In this document: positions 40,829 to 52,179 of the stretch, in pieces
How positions within the stretch are numbered: position 1 is the first letter of the stretch
Layout of the letters: each line of letters begins with the position of its first letter
Assembly (NCBI RefSeq): GCF_004366035.1
Contig: NZ_SOEE01000006.1
Coordinates: 62,001-126,000 of the forward strand
DNA from: Cytobacillus oceanisediminis
GTDB taxonomy: Bacteria > Bacillota > Bacilli > Bacillales > Cytobacillaceae
Length of the DNA: 64,000 bases
Reading direction: 5' to 3'
Translations under genes and position numbers: made by a program
The notes under the pieces: model-generated
The model's database searches: none
Seen by the model: only the letters and a program-made list of their open reading frames with translations
Told to the model about the DNA's origin: nothing

Positions 40829-41059
40829 TGTCTAGCTGCAGCGCCTAGCCCCTCGGGGTCATAAGCCAAATCACTCCAGAAATCAGGAAAGGAAAGCTTC
40901 GGCAGCGATCATCGCCCGACCAAAGCTTGCTTTGGGAGGTTTCCTGCGTGATTCGTCTTATGCCTGTCGGGCTTGCACAGGATGTGCTGACTTCAACGTT
41001 CGCCACAGGACGTGGCGGTTTTTAGTTGAAGTTCATCTGGAGGCGCTTCCGCTTTTCTT
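40829..41059. repeat. Long copy of a Bacillus-type interspersed repeat (TGTCTAGCTGCAGCGCC ... GCTTTTCTT)
   Basis: About 231 bases bounded by TGTCTAGCTGCAGCGCCTAG on the left and GGAGGCGCTTCCGCTTTTCT on the right. It includes the internal blocks CCCCTCGGGGTC, GCACAGGATGTGCTGACTTC and CGTTCGCCACAGGACGTGGC. I recall closely similar non-coding elements scattered through Bacillus genomes. It has no credible frame. It sits between the promoter and ribosome site of the Mta-like gene, so it is transcribed as part of that leader. Confidence 0.75.
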
Positions 41060-46611: not shown

Positions 46612-46639
46612 ATGACAACCCCAATCAGTATGTTATACT
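46612..46639 (+). promoter_or_regulatory. Candidate SigA promoter of the B12/STAS cassette
   Basis: ATGACA (46612-46617), 16 bp, TATACT (46634-46639), about 40 bases ahead of the first gene of the cassette. Confidence 0.5.
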
Positions 46640-46677: not shown

Positions 46678-46983
46678 ATGTATACAGTCTTTTCAACATT
46701 TGACGTACCCGATGAAAAGTCGGAGGAAGTCATTAGCATATATAAAAATCGCTCGCGGTCGGTCGATCAGGCGGAGGGGTTTATCGATTTTCTGCTGCTG
46801 CAGAATGATAAGCGCCCTGGCGAATTGACGGTGCAGCTCATCTTTGATACAAAAGAAAACTATTTAAATTGGGTTCGCAGTGAGGATTTTAAGAGAATCC
46901 ATGATTTAGAGAAAAAGTATCCTGATCAGGAACTGGCTGCAGTGGTTCCAAAGGTTTCGCAATACAAGGTGGTGGCTAAGTGA
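46678..46983 (+). CDS. Antibiotic-biosynthesis-monooxygenase (ABM) domain protein
   Basis: A 101-residue ferredoxin-like protein with the ABM pattern (YTVFSTFDVPDEKSEEVISIYKNRSRSVDQAEGFIDFLLLQN, then LIFDTKENYLNWVRSEDFKRIHD). Relatives include haem-degrading IsdG/HmoB enzymes and small cofactor-independent monooxygenases; the active-site residues needed to choose are not certain. It opens a four-gene unit and overlaps the next gene by 4 bases. GGAGGAGAG precedes the ATG. Confidence 0.75.
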   Translation: MYTVFSTFDVPDEKSEEVISIYKNRSRSVDQAEGFIDFLLLQNDKRPGELTVQLIFDTKENYLNWVRSEDFKRIHDLEKKYPDQELAAVVPKVSQYKVVAK

Positions 46984-47345
46984 ATTTTGAAAAGATCGTA
47001 AACCGTGTTACCGAAGTAATCTATGAACGCGAGCCATTCCTGCTGGAGCGGTTTGGCGAACAAGGAAAAGAGAAGTGCCGCGAAGATAACCATCATCATA
47101 TGAAGCATCTCGAGACAGCGTATGAGCTGAACCAATCTGCTTTTTTCACTGATTATGCCGTTTGGCTTGCTGGCATTTTAAATAAGCACGGGATGAAGAC
47201 CCAGCATCTGATCGACAATTTCGAAATCATTCAGGCTGTGCTGGCTGATGATACAGATACTGCTGAAAAGACAGAGAAATTTAATCTTTATCTTGCAGAA
47301 TCCATTGCTGTTTTGAAAGGTGAACCAGTGAAGGGAGGAGTGTAA
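46980..47345 (+). CDS. Helical histidine-rich protein of the B12 cassette, unknown family
   Basis: A 121-residue all-helical protein. Prominent is the segment EKCREDNHHHMKHLETAYELN (four His in a short span), then FFTDYAVWLAGILNKHGMKTQHLIDNF. I cannot place it with certainty. It could be a haem- or tetrapyrrole-binding helical bundle, or a detached N-terminal domain of the B12 protein encoded 1 base after its stop. It overlaps the ABM gene (ATGA-type) and contains the ribosome site of the next gene (GGGAGGAG). Confidence 0.6.
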   Translation: MNFEKIVNRVTEVIYEREPFLLERFGEQGKEKCREDNHHHMKHLETAYELNQSAFFTDYAVWLAGILNKHGMKTQHLIDNFEIIQAVLADDTDTAEKTEKFNLYLAESIAVLKGEPVKGGV

Positions 47346-47346
47346 G

Positions 47347-47991
47347 ATGAAACAGGCTGAAACACTCGCTTCACTGCTGCTGGAAGGCAATTCTGCGAAA
47401 GTTTGGGAGAACATTCAAAAGCATCCGCAGCTATCGCGCCTTGAAGTTTTTCAAAATCTGATTACACCTGCGATGCAGCACATTGGCCACCTATGGGAGA
47501 CAAATCAGATCACAGTCGCAGACGAACATTTGGCAACAGCTACCTGTGATTTTGTGCTGTCAAAACTCACTTACCAGCGGGAAAAAAGACAATCAAGCCA
47601 AAAAGCCATGTTTCTCTGCCTGGATGGGGAACAGCATTATATTGGCCTGAAAATGGTCAACAGCCTTTTTGAAGAGCACGGCTGGGAGACGAAGTATTTT
47701 GGCCCGAGCCTGCCTTTGGAATATGCGCTGAAAACGGCAAAAGACTGGAAGCCGAGTGTAATCGGTCTATCGGTCAGCATTGTCTATCATCTGCCGAAGC
47801 TGAAGGAATACGCCGAAGCATTTGCCAAACTGCCGCATAAGCCGGCTGTTCTTCTTGGCGGGCGTTTAGCAGGGAAGTATGACCTGCTTCCTTATTGCTC
47901 CGATCATACAGTCATTCTAAGGGATTTGCCGGAAACAAAGGAATGGCTGCAAAACTATGAAGCGGGAGGACAGCAAAATGCAATATTTTGA
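47347..47991 (+). CDS. Stand-alone cobalamin-binding protein with CarH/AerR-type photosensor signature
   Basis: A 214-residue protein. Residues 1-80 form the four-helix B12-binding cap and contain W50-x9-E60-H61 (LWETNQITVADEH), the motif that marks adenosylcobalamin photoreceptors such as CarH. Residues 85-200 are the Rossmann-like B12 domain with EQHYIG (His97 as lower axial ligand), LSVSIV and LLGGRL. The 37-residue distance from E60 to H97 matches the CarH arrangement. The residue after W50 is Glu; CarH has its light-state upper-ligand His there. There is no DNA-binding domain, as in AerR. Located between the helical and STAS genes of a tightly coupled unit. Confidence 0.85.
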   Translation: MKQAETLASLLLEGNSAKVWENIQKHPQLSRLEVFQNLITPAMQHIGHLWETNQITVADEHLATATCDFVLSKLTYQREKRQSSQKAMFLCLDGEQHYIGLKMVNSLFEEHGWETKYFGPSLPLEYALKTAKDWKPSVIGLSVSIVYHLPKLKEYAEAFAKLPHKPAVLLGGRLAGKYDLLPYCSDHTVILRDLPETKEWLQNYEAGGQQNAIF

Positions 47992-48763
47992 TCAGCCGCT
48001 TCCGCTTGCGTTTTTAAAAGCTGACAGGAACGGAAAACTAGTAAGCTACTCCACCTTAGCATGGGAACACTTTGACCTGAGCGAGGAGCATTTAAAAGGA
48101 ATCATTGATGAGGAAAGCATTGAAAAGCTGATTCAATACAGCTGGGATCCCAGATTGGATCCTGTAAAACTGGAACTGAATATGAAGACCAGGGAAACAT
48201 CGCTATCTTTATTTGAGGTCCATATTCAATGGGACAGCGAGGATTTTGCCAATATGCTATTTCTGCCAAAAGACAGCTCTAATGAAGGATTGATGGATAA
48301 GCTGATGCAGCTGCAGCAGCGCCTGTCCTCTACCGACTTTGAACTTCTGGAGAAAAAAGAAGAGCTTGAGCAGGTGCTCATCCGCTTGAATCAGCTGTCC
48401 GGGCCGTTTATTCCGCTGTCGGAAACGCTGTGCATGATTCCTTTATTTGGGGATATAACAGCAGATAAAATAAACGTTATTTCCGAAAGCTGTCTGAAAG
48501 CCGTTTTTGCCGGCGAATTTGAAGAAATTCTCTTTGATCTGACAGCGGTTGGGGAAATTGAAGGAAAAGGAATTGAGAAATTCACCCAGCTGATTAAAAC
48601 GCTGAACTTCATGACCGGCAGCATCATCAAATTGATTGGCATTAAGCCAAACCTGGCAAAAATGCTGAATAACTATAAGCTGGATGAATGGGTGCAGATC
48701 GATCAATCCCTGAAGCAAGTATTAAATGTCTACTTTAATCGGAATGAGTTAGGGGCCTCTTAG
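47978..48763 (+). CDS. PAS-like / coiled-coil / RsbR-type STAS protein
   Basis: A 261-residue protein. Residues 1-95 look PAS-like (PLPLAFLKADRNGKLVSYSTLAWEHFDLSEE), 105-140 are a coiled coil, and 142-258 a STAS domain opening LSGPFIPLSETLCMIPLFGDITADK, as in RsbR proteins. The Thr171-like Thr is kept (GDIT) but the Thr205 position is Gly in DLTAVGEIEG. The ATG at 47978 follows GGGAGGAC inside the B12 gene, overlapping it by 14 bases. It is the probable output of the cassette toward a stressosome-like complex. Its own terminator stem overlaps the stop. Confidence 0.8.
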   Translation: MQYFDQPLPLAFLKADRNGKLVSYSTLAWEHFDLSEEHLKGIIDEESIEKLIQYSWDPRLDPVKLELNMKTRETSLSLFEVHIQWDSEDFANMLFLPKDSSNEGLMDKLMQLQQRLSSTDFELLEKKEELEQVLIRLNQLSGPFIPLSETLCMIPLFGDITADKINVISESCLKAVFAGEFEEILFDLTAVGEIEGKGIEKFTQLIKTLNFMTGSIIKLIGIKPNLAKMLNNYKLDEWVQIDQSLKQVLNVYFNRNELGAS

Positions 48764-48777
48764 GAGGTCTTTTTTTG
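48754..48777 (+). terminator. Terminator of the B12/STAS cassette
   Basis: GGCCTC / GAGGTC stem (one G-T), 4-base loop that holds the stop codon, followed by TTTTTTT. Confidence 0.65.
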
Positions 48778-48867: not shown

Positions 48868-50073
48868 ATGGGTTTGCCGAAGGAAAGGCATAGCGGATAC
48901 AGTCAAGAAGTACAGAAGGGTTCGTTTATAAAGGATCTGACAGCAGAAAACATTTCATCTGGAATCATTGCAAGCACACTGGTTATGACGGGGCCGGCTC
49001 TGATCATTTTACAGGCTGCCTCAGCAGGGGGATTTACTGATCAGCAGACGATTAACTGGATGTTTGCGGTTTATTTTTTCGGGGGTGTATACAGCATCCT
49101 CTTGCCGCTTCTATATAGGATTCCCATCACAGGAGGGCATTCGATTACTGGAGCGGCCTTTTTGGCGACTGTGACTGCGCAATATTCGTATCCGGAACTG
49201 ATCGGCGGTTATGTGATGTCAGGGCTACTGATTTTTCTGGTCGGCATTTCAGGGCTGTTTACAAAAATCATTGGCTGGGTGCCGAAAGAAGTCATCGCCT
49301 CCATGCTTGGCGGATTGGTTGCCGGCTATGTCGTGAAGCTCGTACCGGCCATCCAGGAAATGCCTGTTGTCGGAGGAGCGGCTTTAATCAGTTTTCTGCT
49401 TTTTACGAGATATGTGAAGAAGTTCCCGCCCGTGCTCGCGGCCGTCGCAATTGCCTTTGCGATATTGTATTTGACAGCTGATTTAAATCCGGCTAAAGAG
49501 ATTGCTTATTTCCTGCCATCTATTCAAGTGCCGGAATTCAGCTGGATGGGTCTTGTGACGATTGCCCTGCCGCTCGCGATGCTGATACTGAGCAATGACG
49601 CTGCACCGGGAATCGGGGCCCTTGAAAGTGAGGATTTCAAGCCGCCTATCCGTAAAATTGTCTCATCAAGCGGCTTCTTCTCCGTAATCACCAGCTTCTT
49701 TGGCGGCCAGTGTGCCAATATCGCCGGCATGATGAGCGCCATCTGTGCCGGACCGGATTCAGGGCCTAAGGAAAAGCGGTATATGGGAGCTGTTGTTTCA
49801 GGCGCGATTACGATCGTCTTCGGCATTTTTGCCTGGAAAATCGTGCCCTTTATCCAGTCGCTTCCGCAGGCATTCATTTCATTGCTGGCTGGGTTCGCCC
49901 TGATCGGCGTCCTGCATTCCAGCCTGCAAATGGGCTTCTCCGAAAACCGCTACCGGCTAAGCGCGCTCGCTGCCTTCATTGTCACCTTATCAGGCGTGAG
50001 CTTTCTCCATATCAGCGCACCCGTTTGGGGACTCCTTGCCGGGGCGGTATTTGCCCGGACAATAGAAAGATAA
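48868..50073 (+). CDS. BenE-family (benzoate/H+ symporter-like) transporter
   Basis: A 401-residue protein with about twelve helices. BenE marks are SSGIIASTLVMTGPALIILQAA, the PITGGHSITGAAFLA loop, and late SFFGGQCANIAGMMSAICAGP. In proteobacteria BenE imports benzoate, but the family is broader and no aromatic pathway lies nearby, so the substrate is open. GGGGGCAGGA precedes the ATG. A MazG-like gene follows 56 bases later. Confidence 0.84.
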   Translation: MGLPKERHSGYSQEVQKGSFIKDLTAENISSGIIASTLVMTGPALIILQAASAGGFTDQQTINWMFAVYFFGGVYSILLPLLYRIPITGGHSITGAAFLATVTAQYSYPELIGGYVMSGLLIFLVGISGLFTKIIGWVPKEVIASMLGGLVAGYVVKLVPAIQEMPVVGGAALISFLLFTRYVKKFPPVLAAVAIAFAILYLTADLNPAKEIAYFLPSIQVPEFSWMGLVTIALPLAMLILSNDAAPGIGALESEDFKPPIRKIVSSSGFFSVITSFFGGQCANIAGMMSAICAGPDSGPKEKRYMGAVVSGAITIVFGIFAWKIVPFIQSLPQAFISLLAGFALIGVLHSSLQMGFSENRYRLSALAAFIVTLSGVSFLHISAPVWGLLAGAVFARTIER

Positions 50074-50075
50074 AT

Positions 50076-50106
50076 GGTGACTGGCACCACCCGGAATTTC
50101 TCGAAT
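50076..50106. repeat. Interspersed 29-31-bp element, copy 2 (GGTGACTGGCACC...)
   Basis: GGTGACTGGCACCACCC followed by GGAATTTCTCGAAT, 2 bases after the BenE stop and 8 bases ahead of the ribosome site of the next gene. Copy 1 is at 32075-32103. The left part can fold as GGTG...CACC. Confidence 0.55.
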
Positions 50107-50129
50107 ATATCAGAAGAGGTGTTAATAGA

Positions 50130-50513
50130 TTGAATGAATTGCAATGCTTTATGAGAAAGTATCAAAAAGAGATGGGCTGGGAAATCAGCGGTGAGAATTA
50201 TGCCAGGAGCCGCGATTCCCTTTTAAATAACTATATGCTGCTGACAACCGAAGTTGCAGAGGTTGCTGAAGAGCTGCGCAAGGCCTTTAACCTTGTCAGC
50301 GATTATACAAAAGAAGGAATGGATGAAGAACTGGCCTTTCAATTAGCTAGTGATCAGGTAAAAGAAGAGCTTGGCAAAGAACTCGCAGACTGCCTGGCCT
50401 ATCTGATTAAATTCTATAACTTCTTTGGTATTGACCTGGAGGATAGTTTTTACGGGAAAATGGATGAAGTCAGGAAAAGAAGGAATAAGGGTGGGAGTTT
50501 CGCAGAAAAATAG
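50130..50513 (+). CDS. MazG-like nucleotide pyrophosphohydrolase
   Basis: A 127-residue all-alpha protein with the MazG metal pattern: EVAEVAEELRKAF in helix 1 and KEELGKELADCLAYLIKF, where the ExxE and ExxD acids would bind magnesium. Such enzymes hydrolyse (d)NTPs to monophosphates for housecleaning. I chose the TTG at 50130, 8 bases after AGAGGTG; the longer frame upstream overlaps BenE and is not protein-like. Confidence 0.8.
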   Translation: MNELQCFMRKYQKEMGWEISGENYARSRDSLLNNYMLLTTEVAEVAEELRKAFNLVSDYTKEGMDEELAFQLASDQVKEELGKELADCLAYLIKFYNFFGIDLEDSFYGKMDEVRKRRNKGGSFAEK

Positions 50514-50592
50514 ATAATTTGCAGCAATAAGAGATTGTAATGACTTTGAGAACTTCACCAAGCTGGAAGCCTCATTAGAAAGGAGAGCAGCC

Positions 50593-52179
50593 ATGACCAT
50601 CATGCAGGACAAAATCTCAAGCCTTCTGGAAATAAATCGCAGTTTAACCCAGTCTCTTGAACTGGAGGAGATTCTGAAGCGGCTCGTACAAGCTGCCTTT
50701 GATTTAGTAGACCATGCTGATACGACCATTCTTTACACGTTAAAGGAAAATGGATTATTACATTTTTCCAGCGGGGTTGGGGTGGAGACAGGCTTTATGA
50801 GCCAGGTGAAGTTTGAGCCTGGTGAATCCTTGACGGGACAGGTATTTCTGACTAAAAAGGGCGTCATTGCGTCAGGACATGAGTTCAGGGAGCATATGAG
50901 CCGTATGTCTGAGATAAATTATATGCATTTTTTTAATGGAGTCTATCGGCGTGAAGTGAAGAGCGGCATCGTTGTCCCATTGGTTTATAAGGAGAATTGC
51001 ATCGGTGTACTTGTGGTGGATAACTTCGACAAGGATGTACAGTTTACTGAAGCTGACTTTCAAGTGCTGGAGGTGGTGGCAGACCAGGCGGCTATTGCCA
51101 TCATGAACTCGAAGCTTTACGAAGAAGTAAGGCGAAAAAATGAGGAACTGAGCCAATCACTTGATATCCACCGGAAATTCACGAAGATTCTGCTGGAGGG
51201 AAGGGGGACTTCGTATATCCTGGAGACCATCAGTCACATTTTGGGCTTCCCAGTCATCTTTGCAGAGTCACCAATAAATCCATCCAGTTCTTTTCCGATC
51301 ATAAACTCCAACGAACTTTTCGGATATTTCCTTCTGGATGAGCCAGTTGAACGTTTGACGAATATCCAGAAGGCCGCTCTTGAGCATGCTTCAACGGCTT
51401 TGTCACTGGAGTTTGTCAGGCAGAATACGCTTTTTGAAAAAGAGATGTATCTAAGGGAAGAGGCCTTTCATGATTTGATCAATGGCGGACGTCTGGATCC
51501 AAGGATTCTGGAAAAGTTCCGCTTGAATGAGAAAAGCAGCATCGCCTGTATGATGGTGGACTGCAAGTCTGGTTTTCTATGGGATGAAGCCTCCATCCTT
51601 CAAAAAGAAAAACTCATCCGAGCGATCGAGCAGATCACCATGAAATACTGTGAAACTCCGATTGTTTTTGCGAAATCAAACCAAATCATAGCACTCATGA
51701 TGAATGGACGGAAAAAGTATGACCATTGTCTAGCTGATGATATTCAGAGAAAAGTGAACAGAGCTGTCATTGGTTTGGGCAGAGAGGTTGCTTTAACAGA
51801 TATGACAGATACCTACCAGGAAGCTGCCGAAGCCTTATCATTTGCAAAAAGCCATCAGCACAAAACCTTTATCACTTATTCTGAGCTTGGTGCTGAAAGA
51901 CTGTGGCTCAACACCGATCGCAGCTTGCTGAACAAATTTGTCTCCGATAAATTAGGTTCTCTTTTAAAAATGGAGCCTGAATACCTAAAAACGATGCAAG
52001 CCTTTCTGGAACATAATCAAAGTCATAAACAAACAGCAGAAGTGATGCATATTCATCCCAATACCCTTGCCTACCGGCTGAAAAAAATCGAGAGCGAGCT
52101 GCAGCTGGATTTTTCCCGGAATGAAGATTGGATCACAGTGGTCCTTGCATTCCAGGTCTTTGACTTTTTAAACCCCTAA
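50593..52179 (+). CDS. GAF-domain PucR-family transcriptional regulator
   Basis: A 528-residue protein. An N-terminal GAF domain spans about residues 10-180 (LEEILKRLVQAAFDLVDHADTTILYTL..., GVLVVDNFDKDVQFTEADFQVLEVVADQAAIAI). A GGDEF-like middle is followed by a C-terminal PucR HTH (FLEHNQSHKQTAEVMHIHPNTLAYRLKKIE). PucR/CdaR proteins activate purine, glycolate or glycerate use. It lies directly ahead of the catabolic genes, so it is the likely activator. AAAGGAGAG precedes the ATG. Confidence 0.87.
   Translation: MTIMQDKISSLLEINRSLTQSLELEEILKRLVQAAFDLVDHADTTILYTLKENGLLHFSSGVGVETGFMSQVKFEPGESLTGQVFLTKKGVIASGHEFREHMSRMSEINYMHFFNGVYRREVKSGIVVPLVYKENCIGVLVVDNFDKDVQFTEADFQVLEVVADQAAIAIMNSKLYEEVRRKNEELSQSLDIHRKFTKILLEGRGTSYILETISHILGFPVIFAESPINPSSSFPIINSNELFGYFLLDEPVERLTNIQKAALEHASTALSLEFVRQNTLFEKEMYLREEAFHDLINGGRLDPRILEKFRLNEKSSIACMMVDCKSGFLWDEASILQKEKLIRAIEQITMKYCETPIVFAKSNQIIALMMNGRKKYDHCLADDIQRKVNRAVIGLGREVALTDMTDTYQEAAEALSFAKSHQHKTFITYSELGAERLWLNTDRSLLNKFVSDKLGSLLKMEPEYLKTMQAFLEHNQSHKQTAEVMHIHPNTLAYRLKKIESELQLDFSRNEDWITVVLAFQVFDFLNP

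Follow-up and report, generated by a model that had tools for sequence, protein, structure and literature searches.

A four-gene operon of the Bacillales appears to encode a light sensor built on vitamin B12 and a bilin globin beside a STAS protein

We analysed a stretch of 64,000 nucleotides from Cytobacillus oceanisediminis (contig NZ_SOEE01000006.1, positions 62,001 to 126,000 of the forward strand; hereafter the window), which belongs to a genome of 5.84 Mb, and found four successive genes whose products appear to form a light sensor. It would combine vitamin B12 with a bile-type pigment carried by a relative of the light-harvesting proteins of cyanobacteria, and its role would probably be to adjust the stress response of the cell. 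We consider it reasonably probable that this operon encodes a split photocobilin, the bilin of which comes from, or is handed over by, an ABM protein and the light state of which is passed to a STAS protein that tunes RsbT and SigB. The four genes are arranged as follows:

46678..46983, + strand: ABM gene, 101 amino acids (PF03992, 49.3 bits, above the Pfam cut-off)
46980..47345, + strand: globin gene, 121 amino acids, GTG start, 4-base overlap (GTGA) with the ABM gene
47347..47991, + strand: B12 gene, 214 amino acids (PF02607 and PF02310), 1-base gap after the globin gene
47978..48763, + strand: STAS gene, 261 amino acids (PF01740), ATG at 47978, 14-base overlap with the B12 gene

The original prediction, which was made from the sequence of the window, had described four genes that overlap or abut, and its two overlaps and single-base gap are all present. 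The list of open reading frames offers an earlier in-frame ATG for the STAS gene at 47957; the start at 47978 was preferred because a GGGAGG stretch precedes it and relatives, whose own starts were picked by a script, align from the Met at this position.

The gene order is conserved far beyond chance and is widespread in the Bacillales. A search for this order, proposed together with the original prediction, found ABM, globin, B12 and STAS genes contiguous in 36 of 50 loci of the same family (50 loci from 55 matching genomes, 193 genomes searched) and in 33 of 47 loci with organism names, one of the 48 named loci found (L104) having been removed for a weak globin match; the two sets have genomes in common. 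The named loci include Cytobacillus, Metabacillus, Mesobacillus, Bhargavaea, Pseudalkalibacillus and others, and the closest named relatives by cassette loci are mostly Cytobacillus. The full order also occurs in 6 of 20 further regions, which were partly picked as odd cases and thus give no rate. Three loci labelled Paenibacillus, Pseudomonas and Chryseobacterium (L063, L066 and L085) look like Cytobacillus or Mesobacillus loci, and the strains are probably mislabelled.

Three single-gene searches were taken as one sample of 299 genomes drawn from the order, since their genome handles agree, and the globin was found in 124 genomes, the cassette-type ABM protein in 114 and the B12 protein in 136. 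In this sample the dependence of the ABM protein on the globin is without exception: all 114 ABM genomes also have the globin and B12 genes, and in 113 of the 114 the ABM gene is the immediate 5' neighbour of the globin gene and has the same orientation. The genomes are related, so Fisher p-values for this co-occurrence are neither independent evidence nor usable as probabilities. The weakest listed ABM match, at 2.9e-29, lies far inside the limit of 1e-12, and the cassette-type ABM proteins therefore form a discrete subfamily.

Counts of distinct sequences given below use score floors of 120 bits for ABM, 200 bits for B12, 115 bits for globin and 150 bits for STAS proteins, which removed divergent globins (L108-L113 and L122), broken copies (L047, L055, L056, L105 and L106) and divergent ABM proteins (L123 and L151). 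The divergent globins scored 74-95 bits and had no ABM or B12 gene in the fetched stretch. At L055, L056, L105 and L106, a broken globin copy with its parts on opposite strands adjoins a STAS gene. These loci are probably two genomes seen twice, one with an intact STAS gene and the other with a STAS gene divided between two frames.

The sequence of the B12 protein marks it as photocobilin-type. Among PDB sequences it matched the photocobilin SasPcob best (8j2w, E = 4.6e-13), and CarH (5c8a) matched more weakly (E = 1.3e-6). Two motifs stand out:

47494..47529, + strand: W50-x9-E60-H61 of the adenosyl pocket, each residue present in 73 of 73 sequences (one gap)
47629..47637, + strand: E95-Q-H97, with E95 and H97 present in 74 of 74 sequences; H97, the counterpart of SasPcob His108, is predicted to be the lower axial ligand

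In the alignment, W50, E60, H61 and H97 correspond to Trp61, Glu71, His72 and His108 of SasPcob, and the ExHxxG motif reads E95-x-H97-x-x-G100. The available text of PMC11796333 names four motifs as light signatures, and all four are readable in the window protein. In contrast, the position of SasPcob His137, which forms a salt bridge with biliverdin, is occupied by Tyr in 58 and by His in 10 of 74 B12 relatives. The only Pfam domains at E up to 1 were B12-binding_2 and B12-binding, with no DNA-binding domain at that threshold, which bears out the original description of a B12 protein that carries the W-x9-EH and ExHxxG signatures and lacks such a domain. The label CarH was rejected: the protein shares the B12-binding core and the adenosine-pocket motifs of CarH but is devoid of the N-terminal DNA-binding domain and of the upper-ligand His, and it reaches 49.3 bits against a cut-off of 400 in the NCBIfam CarH model.

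The 121-aa protein had been described as His-rich and helical in the original prediction, and the view of a B12-only sensor missed both a globin and the ABM protein tied to it. From its model and its residues, the protein appears to be a photoglobin, namely a phycobiliprotein-like globin that is predicted to bind a bilin. The window protein has no match in Pfam or NCBIfam. In a Pfam scan of 17 globin members, weak matches were most often to MetOD1 (4 members, best E = 0.00056) and Phycobilisome (2 members, best 0.0017), and 16 other families appeared in 1 or 2 members each. The fold comparison gave the model a phycobiliprotein-like globin fold, with photocobilins at the top, tied with phycobiliproteins, although mostly helical models can give a high best Z in VIA-align. 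Three codons mark the predicted pocket:

47076..47078, + strand: Cys33, at the position of the bilin-attachment Cys of phycocyanin (C-x-x-D); of 84 distinct sequences, 67 have Cys and 17 have Thr
47085..47087, + strand: Asp36, equivalent to SasPcob Asp270 by profile alignment, 84 of 84
47163..47165, + strand: Trp62, equivalent to SasPcob Trp296 by profile alignment, 84 of 84

Both of the named biliverdin contacts are therefore present, and SasPcob Trp61, Glu71, His72, His108, Asp270 and Trp296 each have a counterpart in the cassette. The motif at Cys33 is C-R-E-D in the window globin; the cassette motif C-x-E-D, with its Asp in 84 of 84 sequences, differs from CXQD of the photoglobins and RGMC of BBAG-2 in the available text of PMC10151467.

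The globin and B12 domains are joined in nature: outside the order, all 10 matching loci had the two as a fusion. These fused photocobilins (L136-L140 and L142-L146, Bacillota) have the globin first and open frames of 359-373 codons, and those at L136-L140, of the same class, carry Thr at the Cys33 position. Photocobilins such as SasPcob and AbDPcob (PDB 8J2W, 8J2X and 8J2Y; PMC10979010, available text) are single polypeptides and give the nearest B12 domain by sequence and the top fold for the globin. The cassette has two genes instead, and hence we file it as a split relative that would work like a photocobilin; it adds the ABM and PAS-STAS genes, together with the Cys at the phycobiliprotein attachment position in most of the globins.

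The ABM protein shares the fold family of the heme-degrading IsdG, HmoB and HmuQ proteins, with a His (H75) that is invariant in 71 of 71 distinct sequences and a Trp in most of them. The five NCBIfam models that it matches all describe heme-degrading enzymes, and it stays under the cut-off of each; the best is HmuQ (43.6 bits, cut-off 130). Based on the gene linkage, the protein likely supplies or handles the pigment of the globin. Covalent attachment of the bilin was rejected as its general role, because the ABM protein also accompanies globins with Thr33. The genome has no PF01126 heme oxygenase (the one heme-degrading family searched for) and contains five PF03992 genes. One of these (L128), which we take to be HmoB-like, retains all three of Asn, Trp and His; a further two match NCBIfam heme-degradation models, some more strongly than others.

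The STAS protein passes the Pfam cut-off for PF01740 with 33 bits, and its STAS domain, this part alone, is closest by sequence to the RsbR chains of the stressosome. Pfam found no PAS domain; the predicted structure, at moderate confidence (mean pLDDT 72.5), comprises a PAS-like domain, a helical linker and the STAS domain. In RsbR the N-terminal domain is a non-heme globin, and the corresponding part of the cassette protein looks PAS-like in this model. Foldseek with this model placed YtvA at the top (E = 6.4e-11, TM 0.37), a match that holds domain by domain and not overall, given the low TM, and PpsR PAS domains further down. LOV domains have a flavin-binding motif with a photoactive Cys, and the PAS-like region contains no Cys in its translation. 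Compared with YtvA (PDB 2MWG), a LOV-STAS protein for blue-light input to the stressosome, the cassette protein thus has a PAS-class domain and a STAS domain but no LOV photochemistry, and light sensing would come in trans. The label YtvA was rejected for the missing Cys and for an NCBIfam score of 52.4 bits against a cut-off of 250, over the linker and STAS part only. Two further codons separate the protein from RsbR in the alignment with the RsbR of this genome and its paralogues:

48461..48463, + strand: Ala162, where RsbR has its first phosphorylatable Thr
48563..48565, + strand: Gly196, where RsbR has its second phosphorylatable Thr

We take these two positions, both Thr in the RsbR of this genome and in its paralogues, to be the phosphorylation sites of RsbR. 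The genome has an rsbRSTUVW-sigB-rsbX-like operon, in which SigB and RsbW pass their NCBIfam cut-offs and RsbV passes the cut-off of the anti-anti-sigma superfamily; RsbR, RsbS, RsbT, RsbU and RsbX were assigned by eye from size, order and sequence. The original prediction is partly supported: its B12 and STAS proteins share one conserved operon and the genome has a sigB operon, but the sensor itself looks like a split photocobilin rather than a B12 protein alone.

In the mechanism that we propose, the globin would hold a linear tetrapyrrole, biliverdin or a related bilin from heme breakdown, that the ABM protein either makes from heme or hands over. The globin would dock in trans on the protein that is predicted to bind adenosylcobalamin (AdoCbl), like the globin domain inside single-chain photocobilins. 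The Co-C bond would break when AdoCbl absorbs green light, or when the bilin, coupled to AdoCbl, absorbs red light, and the loss of adenosine would alter the W50/E60/H61 pocket and the dimer interface. The altered sensor may change its binding to the PAS-like domain of the STAS protein, which in turn would tune the RsbT/SigB stress branch. A more specific version, in which the Bacillales have a multi-part photocobilin whose globin, often equipped with a Cys for covalent linkage of the bilin, is charged by a dedicated ABM enzyme in place of the canonical heme oxygenase and joins the AdoCbl photosensor in trans, so that green and red light signals reach the SigB network through a non-phosphorylatable PAS-STAS protein, is possible but doubtful.

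Several observations weigh against a split photocobilin with this supply and output. The globin profile matched bilin globins weakly (E = 0.008-0.03), Foldseek with the globin model gave no match at E of 0.001 or better, and AbDPcob is an example of a photocobilin in which a globin of this sort is a poor binder of biliverdin (PMC10979010, available text). The globin and B12 domains are separate chains in the cassette, and the structure models are of single chains. The globin occurs without the cassette-type ABM protein in 10 of 124 genomes, which include a broken copy (G085) and two divergent ABM proteins adjoining the globin (G279 and G270, 43 and 41 bits). Of the 136 genomes with the B12 protein, 19 have no globin; B12-STAS pairs lie away from any globin gene at L150, L152 and L153, and ABM-globin pairs lack adjoining B12 or STAS genes in some loci. 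IsdG-type heme oxygenases use an Asn-Trp-His triad, and the cassette protein has Ser6, Trp65 and His75: Ser is present in 68 of 70 sequences (one gap) at position 6, which we take to be the site of the catalytic Asn, and of 71 sequences 56 have Trp and 15 have Tyr at residue 65. Other ABM proteins of the genome (L128 and L130) show similarity to heme oxygenases, L128 with the full triad, so the cassette protein need not be the source of the bilin. It is a serious contender, somewhat short of an even chance, that the photocobilin is split as proposed and that the ABM protein, strictly tied to the globin as it is, serves as a bilin or heme chaperone, as a helper of attachment at Cys33 or as a modifier of the pigment, with the bilin made by another ABM-type heme oxygenase. 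The invariant H75 and the exclusively heme-degrading, if subthreshold, NCBIfam matches speak for an enzyme instead, and an attachment role fails to cover the Thr33 globins.

We regard as unlikely a B12 protein that senses the form of cobalamin, redox state or oxygen rather than light, beside a globin that senses a tetrapyrrole or heme. The original prediction had tentatively read the Glu after the Trp as a sign of cobalamin-state or redox sensing, and the residue after W50 is indeed never His (Glu in 65, Gln in 7 and Leu in 1 of 73 sequences). However, SasPcob carries Gln at this position in the alignment and is light-responsive, with water or hydroxide rather than bis-His ligation in its light state (PMC10979010, available text), so that the doubt about light sensing loses ground; the invariant W, E and H of the adenosine pocket and the two retained biliverdin contacts also argue for light. 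A role as an ordinary corrinoid carrier of a methyltransfer pathway, suggested by weak NCBIfam matches to MetH and to methyltransferase corrinoid proteins, is very improbable: the operon has no methyltransferase, the best solved relative is a photocobilin, W-x9-EH is invariant and relatives fuse the B12 domain to a photoglobin. In the case of the output, we give nearly balanced chances, tilted against it, to a sensor as proposed whose STAS protein acts in a separate partner-switching or protein-protein circuit and not on SigB. Both phosphorylatable Thr of RsbR are missing, and the YtvA match in NCBIfam is not specific, as the RsbR of this genome scores 82 bits in the same model. Some relatives pair with a different protein: at L048, L050 and L101, globin and B12 genes lie near a CheB-CheR-PAS-histidine kinase protein of ~1180-1200 aa (by Pfam at L048, by eye at L050 and L101), and the partner protein matches only the N-terminal part of the STAS-protein profile. 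The nearness of the STAS domain to stressosome RsbR, the YtvA fold match and the sigB operon favour SigB as the target.

Other neighbourhoods vary as well, five neighbour proteins having been scanned against Pfam and the remainder judged by eye. The globin and B12 genes at L048 and L050 are divergent, with no ABM gene nearby. At L087 and L126, ABM-globin genes lie near a histidine kinase (by Pfam at L087, by eye at L126) and a response regulator (by eye). An HD-domain protein of 637 aa is also present at L087; its C-terminal part matches the B12 profile weakly (37 bits), and Pfam found only HD in it. Such variety is consistent with one sensor serving several outputs.

If the split photocobilin holds true, many ordinary soil Bacillaceae would have a green and red light sensor made from vitamin B12 and a bilin, and its link to a stress-type STAS protein would add to the flavin LOV input already known. 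In addition, the cassette-type ABM subfamily would gain a biological role, phycobiliprotein-related bilin globins would enter the heterotrophic Firmicutes as signalling parts, and a photocobilin in separable parts would be of use for optogenetics. No description of an ABM-globin-B12-STAS operon was found among the literature matches listed, as far as their titles and abstract openings go; Schneider 2022, which reportedly treats photoglobins with B12-binding partner genes, may contain one. Photocobilins, photoglobins and B12-linked bilin globins with heme oxygenase are already in print (available texts of PMC10979010, PMC10151467, PMC11796333 and PMC11908464), and a link between photocobilins and STAS/SpoIIE proteins was proposed from interaction networks in Saccharothrix (PMC10979010, available text). 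The photoglobins and BBAG-2 bilin globins (PMC10151467, available text) are likewise linked to a B12-binding protein, in Myxococcales also to a heme oxygenase; the cassette differs in its occurrence in Bacillales, in an ABM-type protein adjoining the globin instead of a canonical heme oxygenase, and in the STAS gene within the operon.

Two candidate signals flank the operon:

46612..46639, + strand: promoter-like site ATGACA-16-TATACT with an extended -10, from a consensus scan (10/12), ending 38 bases 5' of the ABM gene
48751..48772, + strand: terminator-like hairpin with a 9-pair stem and a T run

The region contains 7 promoter-like sites against 5.1 (standard deviation 2.1) in shuffles, weak evidence when taken alone, and 4 terminator-like sites against 2.3 (standard deviation 1.9), a slight excess only. 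Past the terminator-like hairpin, a BenE-type transporter, a MazG-like protein and a GAF-PucR-type regulator (48868-52179) apparently form separate units. An Rfam scan of the window gave one match, which lies outside the operon: RF01690, Bacillaceae-1 RNA, at 40974-41041 on the - strand (64.2 bits).
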